From Bacteroidales bacterium (GTDB lineage Bacteria; Bacteroidota; Bacteroidia; Bacteroidales; UBA932), in assembly GCA_024401825.1 (NCBI GenBank), contig JAKSKF010000009.1, positions 1 to 52,274 of the forward strand: DNA of 52,274 nt, written 5' to 3'. The notes under the pieces were generated by a model. It was not told the origin of the DNA. It worked only from the letters and a program-made list of their open reading frames with translations, and searched no databases. The number at the start of each line of letters is the position of its first letter. The stretch's first letter is position 1. Below, piece by piece: positions 6,625-12,854 of this stretch. The translations under genes were made by a program, and so were the position numbers.

Positions 6625-7317
6625 ATGCATAAACTCATACTCATCGAAACATCGACCGAACTGTGTTCCACGGCACTTTCAGACGGAGACAGGATAATCT
6701 GCGAACGTTTGAGCACGGAACCCCGCGCGCACGCCGCAATGACGGCCGTCTTCGTAAAGGAAATGCTCGACCGGGCCGGATGGAAGGTTCAGGACTGCAG
6801 CGCGGTGGCGGTAAGTTCCGGCCCCGGTTCATATACCGGACTCAGGGTCGGCAGCAGCACGGCCAAGGGCCTCTGCTTCGGAGCGGGGCTGCCCCTGATA
6901 GCGGTGAGCACTCCCGAAGTTCTCTTCAACCAGGCCCTGGAGGATGGCCTTCTGCCGCAAGGTTGCAGGCACGTCATACCTATGATAGACGCCCGCAGGA
7001 TGGAGGTTTACTCCGCCGTATTCTCACCCGACGGACAGATGCAGGGCGAAATATGCTCCAGGATAGTTGACAGGGACAGTTTCAGGGCCGAACTGGAGGA
7101 CGGCCCCTGCCTGTTCATAGGAGACGGGGCGGACAAATGCGCAGAGACGCTCGCCTGTCCCAACGCCTTCTTCAACCAGTGCTGTCCCAGGGCGTCGTCG
7201 ATGTTGGGGCCTGCCCTGAAGGCGATGGAAGAAAAAAGGTTCGAAAGCACGGCGTACTTCGAACCCTTCTATCTGAAAGATTTCATTGCAACGGTGAGCA
7301 GGAAGAAACTGTTCTAG
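6625..7317 (+). CDS. tsaB: tRNA threonylcarbamoyladenosine biosynthesis protein TsaB
   Basis: TsaB is the catalytically inactive partner of TsaD in making the t6A37 modification of ANN-decoding tRNAs. The 230-residue length is typical. The ASKHA-fold N-terminus is recognisable: LILIETSTELCSTAL at residues 4-18, and the conserved SSGPGSYTGLRVGSSTAKGL near residue 64. It is the only rightward gene in this part of the window and has its own promoter. Its last four bases overlap the end of the convergent lipoprotein gene at 7314, so there is no room for a terminator between them. Confidence 0.95.
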   Translation: MHKLILIETSTELCSTALSDGDRIICERLSTEPRAHAAMTAVFVKEMLDRAGWKVQDCSAVAVSSGPGSYTGLRVGSSTAKGLCFGAGLPLIAVSTPEVLFNQALEDGLLPQGCRHVIPMIDARRMEVYSAVFSPDGQMQGEICSRIVDRDSFRAELEDGPCLFIGDGADKCAETLACPNAFFNQCCPRASSMLGPALKAMEEKRFESTAYFEPFYLKDFIATVSRKKLF

Positions 7318-8426
7318 AGAAGAGCGTTCAATTCCCTGCGAAGGTCCTGCTCCCCCTTTATGGAAGAGCCGGAAAGGCTTCCCTCGAATATGAGGATTCC
7401 ACCGGGGACTCCGTTGATGTTGTAAGTGCGGACCAGAGGGGAAGATGCCCCGCGGATGTCGCAGACGTTCACCCAAGGCAGTTCCTGCGCCCGTACGGAT
7501 GCGGCCCAGCCCACCTTGTCCGGAGAAAGGGCCACGGAATAGATGTTGAAGCCCCTGTCCCTGTACTGATTGTAAACCGGAAGCAGGACGTCCAGACTGT
7601 ACATCTTCTGCGCGCGGTCGGAAGGGTCCCAGAAATACAGGAGGATACATCTGTCCTTCAAGGAACTCAAGGCGCACTTCCGGCCCTTTATGTCGGGCAG
7701 GGTGATGTCAGGGAAGCCCAGTTGCTCGGCGGAATTGAGCTTGACCTCCAGGCTGAAGAGCTTTTCCCTCCTCTCCGTCTCGTTCTTGAGCGCCTGGACA
7801 TAGCGGGAGTCCGGGTATCTGCCCATCAGGGAGTCGCACACTGAACGGAAATGCAGGGCGTCGGTGGACTGGGAGAACAGAGGAATGTCCCCCGCCACCT
7901 TCTGGTAGAGCACGGGGATTGCGGTCATTGAAGACGCGTTTGTCATAACGTATTTGACCCTGTCCCTGTAATAGTCCACAAACAGTCTGTTGACGGCCCC
8001 CTGTGTGGTCTTGGGGTCGGAAATCAGCCTGGAATATTCAAAGTTGAACTCGCTGAGGGCATATTCCACGTCGCGCAACTTTTCAGAAGACTCTGAACCT
8101 TTGACGCTGTAGTGTCCCAGCGTATCCGCCTCAAGGGTGACGTTCCCCTTCTCTTCCAGAAGGAGGGATGCCACCTTGCGTCCGGAATAGAAGAAATACA
8201 CGAATTCGGGCTCACCCTTCCTGATTGAAAACTTGTAGGAGAACGAGCCGGAGCCCTTGGTCCGGACAGTGTCCAGAACCGTATATGACGCCCCGTCAAG
8301 TTGCTTTATCACTATTTCAGTACCCTTGGGGACATCCGTCAGGGTTCCGTTGACCTTGATTTTCTGTGTGCAGGCCACAATTGAGAACAATGCCAGGACC
8401 GGCACGATGATTCTACAGACTTTCAT
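7314..8426 (-). CDS. TlpA-like lipoprotein with DUF4369-like N-terminus, lacking the CxxC redox motif
   Basis: The 370-residue protein starts with a lipoprotein signal ending in SIVAC (Cys near residue 19). Residues about 22-120 form a beta-rich domain resembling DUF4369, common in Bacteroidota in front of thioredoxin domains. The C-terminal part (from about 235) follows the TlpA/AhpC layout, with LPDIKGRKCALSSL and LYFWDPSDRAQK. Where a redox protein has WCxxC this one has WDPSDR, so no active-site cysteine pair exists. It is therefore probably a non-redox binding or scaffold protein of the periplasm. It is the last gene of the long leftward run and overlaps the HIT gene by 14 bases. Confidence 0.8.
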   Translation of the reverse strand: MKVCRIIVPVLALFSIVACTQKIKVNGTLTDVPKGTEIVIKQLDGASYTVLDTVRTKGSGSFSYKFSIRKGEPEFVYFFYSGRKVASLLLEEKGNVTLEADTLGHYSVKGSESSEKLRDVEYALSEFNFEYSRLISDPKTTQGAVNRLFVDYYRDRVKYVMTNASSMTAIPVLYQKVAGDIPLFSQSTDALHFRSVCDSLMGRYPDSRYVQALKNETERREKLFSLEVKLNSAEQLGFPDITLPDIKGRKCALSSLKDRCILLYFWDPSDRAQKMYSLDVLLPVYNQYRDRGFNIYSVALSPDKVGWAASVRAQELPWVNVCDIRGASSPLVRTYNINGVPGGILIFEGSLSGSSIKGEQDLRRELNALL

Positions 8427-8817
8427 AAGCTTTCAATATTGCCGCGGCTATTTCCGCCTTACGTTCATCGGACACCTGGGGACGTTTCCTGCGGAAATCC
8501 AAATCCGCTTCGCTCTGAAGGGGAACCAGATGTATGTGAGTGTGAGGGACCTCCATCCCCAGCACTGCCACGCCCACTCTCTTGCAGGGCACGGCCTTGC
8601 CGATGGCCAGGGCCACCTTGCGGGCAAACGCCCACAGGCCGTCATAGACGTCGGGAGGCAGGTTGAAGACATAGTCATCCTCCAGATTCTTGGGGATGAC
8701 CAGGGTATGGCCCTCCGCCAGAGGGCTAATGTCAAGGAATGCGTAGAAGTCCTTGTCTTCCGCGCATTTGAAGGAAGGAATCTCCCCCTTGGCTATCTTG
8801 GTGAAAATGGTGGCCAT
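8413..8817 (-). CDS. HIT-family nucleotide hydrolase (HinT-like)
   Basis: The 134-residue product has the histidine-triad motif HTHIHLVP near residue 92, the catalytic signature of nucleotidyl hydrolases and transferases acting on adenosine phosphoramidates and related nucleotides. The N-terminus MATIFTKIAKGEIPSFKCAED is typical of HinT proteins, as is GHTLVIPKN near residue 36. It sits three bases after greA, so the two are almost certainly co-transcribed. The natural substrate cannot be told from sequence. Confidence 0.92.
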   Translation of the reverse strand: MATIFTKIAKGEIPSFKCAEDKDFYAFLDISPLAEGHTLVIPKNLEDDYVFNLPPDVYDGLWAFARKVALAIGKAVPCKRVGVAVLGMEVPHTHIHLVPLQSEADLDFRRKRPQVSDERKAEIAAAILKAYESL

Positions 8818-8820
8818 ATG

Positions 8821-9291
8821 CTACAGCGCAATTTCAATGATTTTGAACTTGAGCACTCCGGCGGGCACCTGAGCCTCCACGACTTCACCCTTCCCGTGCC
8901 CGAGCAGGGCCTTCGCAATGGGCGTCGTGGCGGCGAGTTTCCCCTTGGAGAAGTCGGCCTCGGTCTCACCCACTATGGTGAACACCATCTTCTGTCCGTT
9001 GCCCATATTTTCAACGGTCACCTTGTTCAGCATCTGAACCTTGTCCGTTCCTATCCTGCTTTCGTCAATCACCTTTGCGGCGGTAACCTTGCTCTGGAGG
9101 TTCGCTATCTTGAGTTCCAGCAAGCCCTGCGCCTCACGGGCGGACTCATACTCCGCGTTCTCGGACAGGTCCCCCTTCTCGCGGGCCTCCGCTATTGCGG
9201 CCGCGATGACGGGACGCTGGGCAAGCGCTTCGGAGAGTTCCTTCTTGAGTTTGTCCAGGCCTTCCTGGGTCATATAAATGTTTTCTGCCAT
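8821..9291 (-). CDS. greA: transcription elongation factor GreA
   Basis: GreA rescues backtracked RNA polymerase by stimulating cleavage of the nascent RNA in the active site. The 156-residue length matches the family. The N-terminal coiled coil carries the tip motif GDLSENAEYESAREAQ near residue 40, with the acidic residues that coordinate the catalytic metal, and the C-terminal FKBP-like domain is complete. I place the start at the ATG at 9291 (MAENIYMTQEGL); an upstream TTG at 9300 would add three residues. The gene starts one base after the stop of the 52-residue gene, so translation is probably coupled. Confidence 0.96.
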   Translation of the reverse strand: MAENIYMTQEGLDKLKKELSEALAQRPVIAAAIAEAREKGDLSENAEYESAREAQGLLELKIANLQSKVTAAKVIDESRIGTDKVQMLNKVTVENMGNGQKMVFTIVGETEADFSKGKLAATTPIAKALLGHGKGEVVEAQVPAGVLKFKIIEIAL

Positions 9292-9292
9292 A

Positions 9293-9451
9293 TCAATCAA
9301 ATTTGGGCTTCAATATTTCCGAATAAACAATCATCTTCTTCAGGTCGATACGGTTCTTCCGCTCACCGGAATCAAATGATTTTTTTTGCTCCCGCAGGAT
9401 GGACCTCTGACCTTCCATCTCGGGAGCAAAATCCTTTTGCTCTGTTTTCAT
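9293..9451 (-). CDS. unnamed 52-residue basic protein between ribF and greA
   Basis: The frame begins with ATG at 9451, where the last base of the ATG region overlaps the ribF stop as ATGA, and ends with TGA at 9293, one base before greA. The product is short and highly charged, beginning MKTEQKDFAPEME; its last third reads RKNRIDLKKMIVYSEILKPKFD, too regular (amphipathic, IDLKK then YSEIL.PKF) to look like random sequence. The perfect fit between two coupled genes argues that it is translated. I recall short Bacteroidota proteins ending in a similar SEIL motif, but I cannot name a family or function. No signal peptide or membrane segment is present. Confidence 0.75.
   Translation of the reverse strand: MKTEQKDFAPEMEGQRSILREQKKSFDSGERKNRIDLKKMIVYSEILKPKFD
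9384..9442 (-). promoter_or_regulatory. two mutually exclusive hairpins at the start of the 52-aa gene
   Basis: GAGCAAAA at 9424-9431 can pair with TTTTGCTC at 9435-9442 (8 bp, 3-nt loop) or, as part of CGGGAGCAAAA at 9421-9431, with TTTTGCTCCCG at 9384-9394 (11 bp). The second pairing is extended by GATGGA/TCCATC at 9398-9403 and 9414-9419. In the leftward mRNA the first hairpin starts seven bases after the ATG at 9451. No U-run follows either stem, so neither is a simple terminator. Confidence 0.45.
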
Positions 9452-10296
9452 AATCCAAATATAAGGTTTTTTGCTGAAACTTCATCAATGGCGAGTTGAT
9501 TTTTCAACTCTTCCGGTGAAGAAAAATCCATCCTGTCCCTCAGACGCTCCACAAAGGATATCCTGAGGTCCAGACCATATATGTCCTCGTCAAAATCGAA
9601 GATATGGGTTTCTATGACGTCCCCCACGTCGGTCATCCCGTAGAGTTCCTTTCCCAGGGCGCGCACCTTGGTCAGATAGGCTCCCTTGCCCGGCAGCATC
9701 TTCAGGGGGTCGTAGAGTTGCATATTGGCCGTGGGGAAGCCTATTGTCCTTCCCAACTGCTTGCCGGACACCACGACGCCCTTCAGGGAATATTCGTAGC
9801 CGAGCTGTTCGTTGGCCAGGCGCACGTTCCCCTCCGACAGGGCAGTGCGGATGCTGGTGGAACTGATTCTTCCTACAGCCTCGCAGATTGTGGTTTCCAG
9901 GCCGAAACGGGCGGCCAGGCCGGCCGTCTCCTCCGGTTTCATCTGGTCGGAGCCGAGACGGTTGTCATAGCCCAACACCAGCATTGTTCCGGCATACTTG
10001 CCGCAGACTATGTCCCTGAGATACTGCTCGGTGGTAAGCGAGGAAAAGTCTCTGGTGAATTCTATGACCTCCACCCTGTCCACTCCGAGGGCCTTCAGGG
10101 CGCCCGTCTTCTCCTCCATCGAGGACAAGAGTCTCAGTTGCCGGGCTTCGTGCTGGAGAGCCATTCTCGGATGAGGCCAGAACGTGAGGACGATGGCCGG
10201 CTCGGAGCGCTCCCTGGCGCACTGTACGAGGGTCTCTATGAGGCGACGGTGTCCACGGTGGATGCCGTCAAAGAACCCTGTCGCAATTACAGCCAT
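9448..10296 (-). CDS. ribF: bifunctional riboflavin kinase / FAD synthetase
   Basis: RibF phosphorylates riboflavin to FMN and adenylates FMN to FAD. The N-terminal adenylyltransferase domain has GFFDGIHRGHRRLI near residue 7 and SSTSIR near 145. The C-terminal kinase domain has the nucleotide-binding GRTIGFPTANM near 185 and ETHIFDFDEDIYG near 232. The segment usually reading like NIGxRPTF is shortened to TDVGDVIETH, which makes the protein 282 residues and not about 310. The start overlaps glgP by ten bases and the stop overlaps the next small gene as ATGA. Confidence 0.95.
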   Translation of the reverse strand: MAVIATGFFDGIHRGHRRLIETLVQCARERSEPAIVLTFWPHPRMALQHEARQLRLLSSMEEKTGALKALGVDRVEVIEFTRDFSSLTTEQYLRDIVCGKYAGTMLVLGYDNRLGSDQMKPEETAGLAARFGLETTICEAVGRISSTSIRTALSEGNVRLANEQLGYEYSLKGVVVSGKQLGRTIGFPTANMQLYDPLKMLPGKGAYLTKVRALGKELYGMTDVGDVIETHIFDFDEDIYGLDLRISFVERLRDRMDFSSPEELKNQLAIDEVSAKNLIFGL

Positions 10297-12854
10297 TGGA
10301 CAAGAGGGAAATCCATCCTGTGAGGAAGGAGAGGATTCTTTGCGAACACTCTGGTTCCCACCTGGTACATACCTGTCTTTTCAGGAAGCACCAGAGTCTT
10401 GAAGCGGGCCACTCCGTCCTTGAATTCAGTCAGTTCGAACTGACACACTTCCTGGATGCTGAGTTTTCCGTTCTTGTCATAAGTGGTGAAAAGCATTTCC
10501 ACTCCGACATCCTCAGGGGCCAGCCCCGCCAGGTCAAGAACCACCTCGCAGGACAATTTGTGTCTCTGGGTAAGGTCATACGACGCCTCCGGGCTGGTGT
10601 AGGACAGAACCTTTATGTCCGGCCAGACCTTGGACACCTTATCCTTCCAGGCCGCAATCTCACGGGCCTTGGCATTGGAGTCCGCAGTCAGCATACGGAA
10701 ACGCTTGAACTGAGGCTCGTAGAACATATTGCAGTAGTCCGTCAGCATACGGTTGGTGGTGAAGTTGCTCGCGACCTTGGCTATGGTGTTCTTAATGTAG
10801 CCGACCCATTCCTTGCTGTAGCCCAGAGACTTGTCTATGTCATAGTATGCAGGGACTATCTCATTCTCGATGATACCGTAGATGGTAGCCGCGTCAAGTT
10901 CGTTCTGGTAGTCCGGCTCATCGTAGGTGTTCTCCTGGGGCAGAGCCCATCCGGCTCCTTCCCTGTATCCTTCCACCCACCATCCGTCAAGCACGGAGAA
11001 GTGCATCACACCGTTCATCGCGGCCTTCTCTCCCGAAGTTCCGGATGCTTCCAGAGGCCTTGTAGGGTTGTTGAGCCATACGTCCACGCCCTGAACCAGT
11101 CTCTTTGCAAGCGAGATGTGATATCCGGGGACGAAGATTATCTTTCCTATGAACCTGTCCTGCTTTGAAATCTCCACAATCTGCTTGATGAGGTCCTGCC
11201 CCATTCCGTCGGCGGGGTGAGCCTTGCCGGCGAAGATGAACTGCACGGGACGGCTGGGGTTGTTCACAATCTTGTCCAGACGCTCCAGGTCCGTGAACAG
11301 CAGAGTGGCCCTCTTGTATGTGGCGAAGCGGCGGGCGAATCCTATTGTCAGCACGTCGGGACGAAGGTTTTCCTGAATCTTCACAATCTGGCTGGGGGAA
11401 TAGTGACTGCCTGTGACGGGGTTTGAGAGCCGCTCGCTGATGGCATTGAAGAGTTCTCCCTTGACGAATTTCCTTATGTTCCAGATTTCAGAGTCGGGAA
11501 TGTCGTAAACACCTTCGAAACATTTCTTGTCGTAGTGGGAAGTCTTGAAGTCGGGGCCGAACACCCTGGCGTGGGCCTGCTTCCATTCCTTGGCGGCCCA
11601 GGTAGCGTAATGCACTCCGTTGGTCACGTAAGACACGTGAAGTTCCTCCGGCAGATATCCGGGGTACATAGGAGAGAATATTTCCTGGCTCACCTTGCCG
11701 TGAAGCATCGAAACGCCGTTGATGTTCTGGCTCAGGTTCGCGGCGAGGGCGCTCATGGAGAACTTCTCTTCCTCGTCACCGGGATTCATCCGTCCCAGGG
11801 ACAGGAACCTGTTCCACTCTATGCCGAAACGGGCGGGATAATGTCCCAGGTATTTGCCCAGGAGTTCCTCGTCGAAGGCATCGTGCCCGGCAGGCACGGG
11901 AGTGTGTGTGGTGAACAGGCCGGAAGCGCGGACCAGTTCGACCGCCTCCTCGTATCTGAGACCGCCCGTCTGCATATACTCGCGAAGGCGTTCCAGGCCG
12001 GCGAAGGCCGCGTGACCCTCGTTGTAATGGTAGATGTCGGGATTCAAGCCGAGGGCGCGGAGAGCCCGGACGCCGCCGATTCCCAGAAGAATCTCCTGCT
12101 TGAGACGATTCTCCCAGTCTCCCCCGTATAGCTGGTGGGTGACCTGACGGTCTTCAGGGATGTTCGCCTCGAAATCGGTGTCGAGGAGATAAAGGTCGGT
12201 ACGGCCCACCGCAACCTTCCAGATGCGGGCGGACAACTCGCGGCCGGGCATTGCCATCTTGACCGTGAGCCAGTTGCCGTCCTTGTCGGTAACGGGTTCC
12301 GCAGGAATCTTCATAAAGTCCTGGGGCTCATAGTTGGCGACCTGGTTTCCCTGCGCGGTAAGGCGTTGGGTGAAGTATCCGTAACGGTACAGGAGACCCA
12401 CCGCCACCATATTGACGTTCATATCGCTGGACTCCTTGAGATAGTCGCCGGCAAGGATTCCGAGTCCGCCGGAGTATATCCTGAGGGAAGTGTCAAGTCC
12501 GTACTCCATACAGAAATACCCTATGGAGGGGTCTGTCCTGTGGGACTTGAGTTCCATATAGTCGTTGAATTCGGACATCACCATCTGCAGGTTGGCGAGG
12601 AAAGACTTGTCCTTCGCAAGCTGCTGGTAACGGGTGAGGCTCACGCTGTCAAGTATGACCATAGGGTTGTGTCCCGAAGTATGCCACAGGTCGGCGTCAA
12701 CCGACTTGAAAAGGGCTTTCGCGCTGTCATTCCAGCACCACCACAAGTTCTTGCAAAGGGTTTCCAGGCCGGAAAGTTCTTCGGGAAGGTGACGCGTCAC
12801 CATTACGCTTTTCCATACCGGAGAAGACGTGGAATTGTTATTCTGCATGCTCAT
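10287..12854 (-). CDS. glgP: alpha-glucan (glycogen) phosphorylase, GT35
   Basis: It releases glucose 1-phosphate from glycogen or maltodextrin ends using phosphate and PLP. The PLP-lysine region is EASGTSGEKAAMNGVMHFSVLDGWW near residue 605, and the C-terminal half holds FAGKAHPADGMGQ. At 855 residues with an N-terminal WKSVMVTRHLPEEL segment it fits the Thermus/archaeal type of alpha-glucan phosphorylase. Start at the ATG at 12854; a second ATG lies two codons in. It overlaps the end of the GH57 gene by 17 bases and closes the glycogen cassette. Confidence 0.95.
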   Translation of the reverse strand: MSMQNNNSTSSPVWKSVMVTRHLPEELSGLETLCKNLWWCWNDSAKALFKSVDADLWHTSGHNPMVILDSVSLTRYQQLAKDKSFLANLQMVMSEFNDYMELKSHRTDPSIGYFCMEYGLDTSLRIYSGGLGILAGDYLKESSDMNVNMVAVGLLYRYGYFTQRLTAQGNQVANYEPQDFMKIPAEPVTDKDGNWLTVKMAMPGRELSARIWKVAVGRTDLYLLDTDFEANIPEDRQVTHQLYGGDWENRLKQEILLGIGGVRALRALGLNPDIYHYNEGHAAFAGLERLREYMQTGGLRYEEAVELVRASGLFTTHTPVPAGHDAFDEELLGKYLGHYPARFGIEWNRFLSLGRMNPGDEEEKFSMSALAANLSQNINGVSMLHGKVSQEIFSPMYPGYLPEELHVSYVTNGVHYATWAAKEWKQAHARVFGPDFKTSHYDKKCFEGVYDIPDSEIWNIRKFVKGELFNAISERLSNPVTGSHYSPSQIVKIQENLRPDVLTIGFARRFATYKRATLLFTDLERLDKIVNNPSRPVQFIFAGKAHPADGMGQDLIKQIVEISKQDRFIGKIIFVPGYHISLAKRLVQGVDVWLNNPTRPLEASGTSGEKAAMNGVMHFSVLDGWWVEGYREGAGWALPQENTYDEPDYQNELDAATIYGIIENEIVPAYYDIDKSLGYSKEWVGYIKNTIAKVASNFTTNRMLTDYCNMFYEPQFKRFRMLTADSNAKAREIAAWKDKVSKVWPDIKVLSYTSPEASYDLTQRHKLSCEVVLDLAGLAPEDVGVEMLFTTYDKNGKLSIQEVCQFELTEFKDGVARFKTLVLPEKTGMYQVGTRVFAKNPLLPHRMDFPLVQWL

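Follow-up and report, generated by a model that had tools for sequence, protein, structure and literature searches.

The window, a stretch of 52,274 nucleotides of contig JAKSKF010000009.1 from a Bacteroidales bacterium (assembly GCA_024401825.1), carries an open reading frame of 52 residues between ribF and greA, with a HIT-family gene following greA (Table 1). The initial annotation had placed its ATG over the ribF stop, as ATGA, and its own stop one base 5' of the greA ATG. The overlap is present as described, on the minus strand, which had been left unstated, and so is the exact fit at the other end: the TGA occupies positions 9293-9295 and the greA ATG begins at 9291, leaving a single base between them. 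This one-base fit is nearly peculiar to the window's genome, the gap to greA ranging from -8 to 229 bases in the other 57 loci with a long or short copy of the gene in which it was measured.

Table 1. Features at and around the 52-residue open reading frame (positions in the window).
Feature	Position	Strand	Basis or content
52-residue ORF, ATG start, TGA stop	9293..9451	minus	product MKTEQKDFAPEMEGQRSILREQKKSFDSGERKNRIDLKKMIVYSEILKPKFD
Short (anchor-less) form of a predicted Bacteroidota single-pass membrane protein family	9293..9451	minus	homology, hydropathy
C-terminal conserved tail IDLKKMIVYSEILKPKFD, residues 35-52	9296..9349	minus	alignments A1, A3 and A5; pN/pS
PEMEGQRSI stretch, residues 10-18	9398..9424	minus	homologous to the pre-tail linker of the nearest long forms
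ATGA overlap of ribF stop and ORF start	9448..9451	minus	sequence
TGATATG: ORF stop, one base, greA start	9289..9295	minus	sequence
ribF, 5' neighbour of the ORF	9448..10296	minus	PF06574, PF01687
greA, 3' neighbour of the ORF	8821..9291	minus	PF03449, PF01272, NF001263
HIT-family gene, next after greA	8413..8817	minus	PF01230
TATATTTG, candidate TAnnTTTG box at the ribF end	9456..9463	minus	fit to the Bacteroidales promoter consensus

The candidate box TATATTTG lies four bases 5' of the ATG of the ORF. TAnnTTTG is the promoter box of Bacteroidales, and if this copy were used as a promoter the message of the ORF would be nearly leaderless. The surrounding segment of the window (6625-12854) is packed very tightly: the tsaB-like gene shares 4 bases, tail to tail, with the DUF4369 gene, the DUF4369 gene overlaps the HIT gene by 14 bases, and ribF overlaps a phosphorylase-like gene by 10 bases. 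Of the genes in the window, those that we take to be tsaB, IleS and GlgP (phosphorylase-like) were named by reading, outside the family-library scan. In the window's own genome, which is 89% complete, the tail of the ORF occurs once, and no further copies of it were found there.

A search of 61 genomes with the single peptide returned something at E <= 10 in 21 of them, its own genome included. The clearest matches came from genomes of the same genus, with E values from 6.7e-9 to about 0.01 (the best being 6.7e-9, 1.6e-8 and 1.1e-7), and reading of the frames revealed that most matches are longer proteins aligning by their C-terminal part. In an alignment of 17 such sequences (A1), the long rows present a hydrophobic N-terminus, a variable linker and a common end, IDPKKLIVYSEIMKPKF. 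The profile made from A1 matched 46 of 151 same-genus genomes at E <= 0.1, a count that includes at least one spurious match (G159) and a set in which many genomes are incomplete. At E <= 1 it matched 121 of 198 genomes of the order, weak chance matches included, A1 already containing three order-level sequences (L014, L016 and L017). Profile A3, assembled from 24 rows (22 from other genera and two from the window's genus) with the window sequence excluded, recovered the window ORF at E 9.7e-8. At E <= 0.01 its matches numbered 79 among 246 genomes at class level and 25 among 247 at phylum level; these counts take in the genome of the window itself and a few hits within long unrelated frames (e.g. 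L222). The family, for which we coin the working name YSEIL-tail, spans the order, the class and, in diverged form, other classes of the phylum Bacteroidota.

Long forms within the genus measure 100-198 residues: a single membrane helix at the N-terminus is joined by a low-complexity linker to a tail that is conserved at the C-terminus. In full-length relatives this tail reads (F/I)D.(R/K)KA(V/I)IYSEIL(K/N)(P/R)(K/P)(F/Y), and the window ORF carries the pattern (F/I)D.(R/K)K.(V/I)IYSEI(L/M).P.(F/Y) at or near its end. Loci of the genus that were read by the motif filter have 4-13 residues after the YSEIL core (the filter allowed up to 14). Among the 29 order-level loci (L056-L084), the motif filter recovered the tail in 24, and four more show variants by eye such as YTEILNRKY and YSTILRAPY, L072 being the one left unread. 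In the nine loci retrieved from further classes of Bacteroidota, all nine ends read like a diverged tail, ...YIVVSEILQKP... or ...AIILREILGRPKGAR..., followed in some of them by at least 15 residues. Similar C-terminal ends (...SEILGPPRALR...) may occur in other phyla. The homology of the window ORF extends past the tail into the linker: an ungapped alignment of residues 10-52 with a long form shows 60% identity (E 2e-14, counted for this one comparison), and FAPEMEGQRSI of the window ORF corresponds to FRPEMEGRRMI in L002. Since the homology of this region reaches upstream of an inner methionine, Met12, the ATGA start is favoured.

The tail also behaves as a coding sequence. Over its 17 codons, pairs of short forms gave pS 0.89 and pN 0.22 and differed at 25% of first, 16% of second and 61% of third codon positions; the resulting pN/pS of 0.25, taken at saturated divergence, is a coding test and not a measured dN/dS. 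The same test in the two shifted frames gave ratios of 1.9 and 1.6. These values indicate that the tail of the short forms is under protein-level constraint. Long forms gave 0.16 against the 0.25 of the short forms, which are slightly less constrained; constraint may have been slightly relaxed in them, and the weaker value would be expected for decay or for greater divergence. With same-genus homologues, a match to profile A3 in which the window sequence had no part, and protein-like tail codons, the early proposal that this frame is a real protein-coding gene is borne out. Conservation of the frame in close relatives, suggested then as a check, holds for the C-terminal part, but many genomes of the same genus carry no copy.

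It had also been said that the product belongs to no nameable family, and the curated libraries agree. The window ORF matched 0 families of Pfam and NCBIfam at E <= 1, and PHROGs gave no match and no phage families. None of the 17 members of A1 reached a Pfam cut-off or had a credible match in NCBIfam (best E over the two libraries 0.0083); ten distant relatives, compared with Pfam only, likewise reached no cut-off, the best of them (E 0.001) falling under its own. Rfam returned no family in the window or in three further loci scanned. In the PDB we found no credible solved structure containing the tail, and the sole profile match, an erbB-2 structure at E 0.54, aligns to the membrane helix and is due to chance. 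Another candidate, PF16118 (DUF4834), came from one distant relative (L211), which scored 12.8 bits against a gathering threshold of 27.8 (E 0.24), and no stretch of it passes alone. Nothing on the gene was found in the literature by title or abstract, and the accessible part of a smORF metaproteome paper (PMC13376575) was not informative on the ORF.

Long and short forms were compared over 94 of 121 loci, those left after dropping identical GreA+HIT pairs (loci whose GreA shares 64% identity or more with that of the window, together with L068, of the same family). Of these loci, 54 have the long form and 12 the short form, and in 28 the gene was not found. Eight of the 54 long loci belong to a clade in which the gene adjoins tsaB; L087, of this type, is cut by the contig end and was counted as long. 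Because loci L085-L143 were found by a profile led by the window ORF, the sampling of long and short forms is uneven. Complete long forms present a strong N-terminal hydrophobic helix followed by K/R, with a best 17-residue hydropathy mean of 2.1-3.0, against -0.3 to 0.4 in the 12 short forms. The window ORF reaches a maximum of 0.2 and shows no N-terminal membrane helix, and we therefore file it as a truncated homologue and not as a full member of the family: the helix and most of the linker are missing, and the tail is kept.

The locus tree, a FastTree phylogeny of GreA, HIT, RibF and the DUF4369 protein, describes the history of the locus and not of the species. On it, the 12 short forms resolve into six changes from long to short, a number that holds whether costs are irreversible or reversible and whether the absent tips are kept or left out, and also with nodes below 0.8, 0.9 or 0.95 collapsed. 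On this tree, loss of the helix together with most of the linker occurred in the lineage of the window and on five or more further occasions in related lineages. Named relatives with the family include Candidatus Cryptobacteroides species (L117, L129, L136 and L138), which lie within the tree; of these, L136, which the motif filter missed and which was placed by hand, belongs to the clade adjoining the window (node support 0.78). The window may thus come from a Cryptobacteroides-like MAG. Where ribF is adjacent, the gene overlaps it in seven of nine short forms against five of 42 long forms (Fisher p 2e-4, scored with the first ATG as start), as if a deletion had joined the tail to the end of ribF.

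Short forms also sit in smaller genomes. Completeness-corrected medians are 2.02 Mb for the short form (10 genomes, L095 and L113 of the 12 having no size), 2.65 Mb for the long form (34 genomes, excluding the cut G015 and the spurious G159) and 2.50 Mb where the gene is absent (28 genomes). By Mann-Whitney tests uncorrected for ancestry, short differs from long (p 7e-5) and from absent (p 5e-4), and absent from long (p 0.04). Since genomes without the gene are also slightly smaller than those with the long form, a smaller genome is not a mark of the short form only. One genome, G101 (L172), has a long copy on one contig and a short copy on another, the latter identical except at one residue to the protein of G123 (L173). 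This pair is probably contamination of that genome, and as the sole case seen it leaves no trusted long and short pair within one genome.

The 28 loci in which the gene was not found derive from 30 same-genus genomes with no match, G011 and G072 having been dropped as they had no greA match; in all 28 the gene is absent and greA is kept. A profile of the tail found nothing in these 28 loci and recovered 11 of 11 controls, three of which (L001, L187 and L189) are or match rows of A1. A tail profile of 22 positions, run on 14 no-match genomes, gave only partial matches at E >= 0.28, against 1.6e-12 for the window's genome. The gene is dispensable, and as most genomes of the genus gave no match, any universal partner must do without it.

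The usual arrangement in the genus is ribF, the gene, greA and HIT. In the tsaB clade (L085, L086, L088-L091, L102 and L136) the gene adjoins tsaB, away from ribF, and in six of these eight loci it lies between tsaB and a DUF4369 gene. A fusion to TsaB, suspected from a 423-residue frame in L090 and L051, was discarded when the upstream part turned out to be an alternative frame across tsaB. Puteibacter and Maribellus records show the gene followed by greA and HIT. In Alistipes-type records HIT comes after the gene, and in L132, the single such locus scanned with Pfam, relA/spoT immediately precedes the gene. A frame similar to that of L132 recurs in nine more loci with the Alistipes-type neighbourhood. 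More generally, some of the other families have the gene in the company of greA and HIT, or of HIT only. Many other loci have after the gene what we take, by reading, to be a carboxypeptidase-regulatory/TonB-type protein; a LytTR response regulator lies near it in some loci and rhomboids recur elsewhere (both by Pfam), as does what is presumably, again by reading, a Rieske-like lipoprotein. None of these recurrent neighbours, relA/spoT included, recurs everywhere. The initial annotation had read a role in transcript elongation or flavin metabolism from the position between ribF and greA; because the neighbours vary among relatives and greA persists without the ORF in every no-match locus, we reject such a role. 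The position is a local arrangement that says little about function.

Upstream of greA in the relatives, 57 of 94 loci contain some terminator-like hairpin within 110 bases of the start of the GreA match, against 0.4 expected from mononucleotide shuffles. A strict consensus, GRGTTCTGnn...AGGACTY, is found in 33 of the 94, and all 33 have a TAnnTTTG box (scored free of shuffle control) at most 45 bases before the hairpin, which would therefore lie in the greA leader; L086, L187, L117 and L186 are examples. In an alignment of 21 examples (A6), five of ten pairs have changes on both sides (15 cells; 0/500 shuffles; 1-2 pairs when slid), with the hairpins hand-chosen from those that passed the filter, so that pairing is 100% by construction and the pairing score is inflated. 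It is possible that this hairpin is a greA attenuator. The strict pattern has 0 matches in the window, where the gene abuts greA, and Rfam returned no family for the hairpin in the four sources scanned.

The previous observations lead us to propose, with a probability of about 0.5, that the ORF is a functional minimal form of a Bacteroidota-wide adaptor whose tail docks on a cytoplasmic partner. The data establish the homology, the absence of an anchor, the recurrent truncation (on the locus tree) and the protein-level constraint on the tail. Mechanistically, the N-terminal helix of the full-length protein would anchor it in the inner membrane, and the run of lysines after the helix predicts a cytoplasmic C-terminus, this charge being what both the membrane location and the orientation are drawn from. 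The flexible linker would then present a C-terminal, probably helical peptide, DLRKAVIYSEILKPKF, which would dock onto a cytoplasmic partner. The tail is the only part common to all forms, and the layout of a short conserved C-terminal peptide on a variable linker that follows a membrane helix suggests a tether presenting a docking peptide. In the short form the tail would be what is left, made as a small soluble protein still able to bind. Judged from its sequence, the window copy is a truncated version of a longer, predicted membrane-anchored protein, a real gene of an uncharacterised family that has lost its anchor and kept its tail. With the tether gone its product should be a small soluble peptide, and since its start overlaps the ribF stop, its translation is probably coupled to that of ribF. 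More tentatively, we put forward a broader version, in which these 17 residues serve throughout the phylum as the docking peptide of some conserved cytoplasmic machine, with an anchor that is separable from function.

The chief rival to docking is decay towards loss, the short form being a relic that survives by relaying ribosomes from ribF to greA. We regard this as unlikely, though to be taken seriously: none of the 28 examined no-match loci of the genus has the gene, the short forms, besides being truncated, mostly overlap ribF, they are slightly less constrained than the long ones, and in the window the ORF ends one base from greA. Against decay, the same 17-residue tail was kept through six independent truncations on the locus tree, its codons are strongly constrained, and nine of the 12 short loci have a gap of 34-135 bases with a TAnnTTTG box before greA, so no direct relay can operate there. 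Other explanations are less probable still. The soluble tail might fill the site of the partner without recruiting it to the membrane, acting as an inhibitor or modulator; a kept tail, a lost tether and a single copy in the window's genome would suit such a free regulator, but it has no trusted genome with both forms to support it (the G101 pair looks like contamination), and we hold it improbable.

Slightly more doubtful than this is a regulatory upstream ORF or leader, in which translation of the ORF, and not its product, controls greA. The single base from stop to start, with no TAnnTTTG box between, would favour it in the window; however, the amino-acid sequence is conserved where greA is not adjacent (beside tsaB, relA/spoT or the protein read as TonB-type), synonymous positions are free, and no Rfam family was found in the window. 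No conserved link of the gene to greA emerged, the protein occurring beside other genes. Finally, a chance open frame without product, to which the small size and the lack of firm homology in residues 1-9 might point, deserves hardly any credence in view of the homology, the constraint and the frame controls, which already refute it for residues 10-52.

If the broader version is true, six or more deletions that arose naturally in streamlining lineages have reduced the protein to its docking peptide, a ready-made minimal-element experiment. Given the repeated natural loss of anchor and linker, it is the C-terminal tail that deserves testing first, and the short tail peptide could be used directly as bait for the partner. 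The family extends across Bacteroidota, a major gut phylum, with no curated model in the libraries searched and no function found, and it serves as a warning against reading function from the position between ribF and greA.

Compared with known systems, the hairpin layout of the relatives is comparable to that of GraL, the greA leader RNA of E. coli, which works in autoregulation (PMC6829880). The closest approach to a catalogued family is the weak score to PF16118 (DUF4834) of the distant relative L211, the window protein itself having no match there. In ATGA-coupled small genes, the start overlaps the stop of the upstream gene. The window ORF likewise starts over the stop of ribF; unlike in such genes generally, the overlap here is common in truncated forms and rare in long ones. 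Among named organisms, long forms ending in DLRKAVIYSEIL(K/N)(P/R)(K/P)(F/Y) are found in Puteibacter caeruleilacunae (L135), Maribellus sediminis (L133) and Alistipes MAGs (L132 and L121), in all of which greA-HIT or HIT lies downstream of the gene. The window ORF has the same C-terminal tail, and with the nearest long forms it shares the pre-tail linker as well. These four proteins have an N-terminal membrane helix and 120-200 residues, whereas the window copy has 52 residues and no helix.
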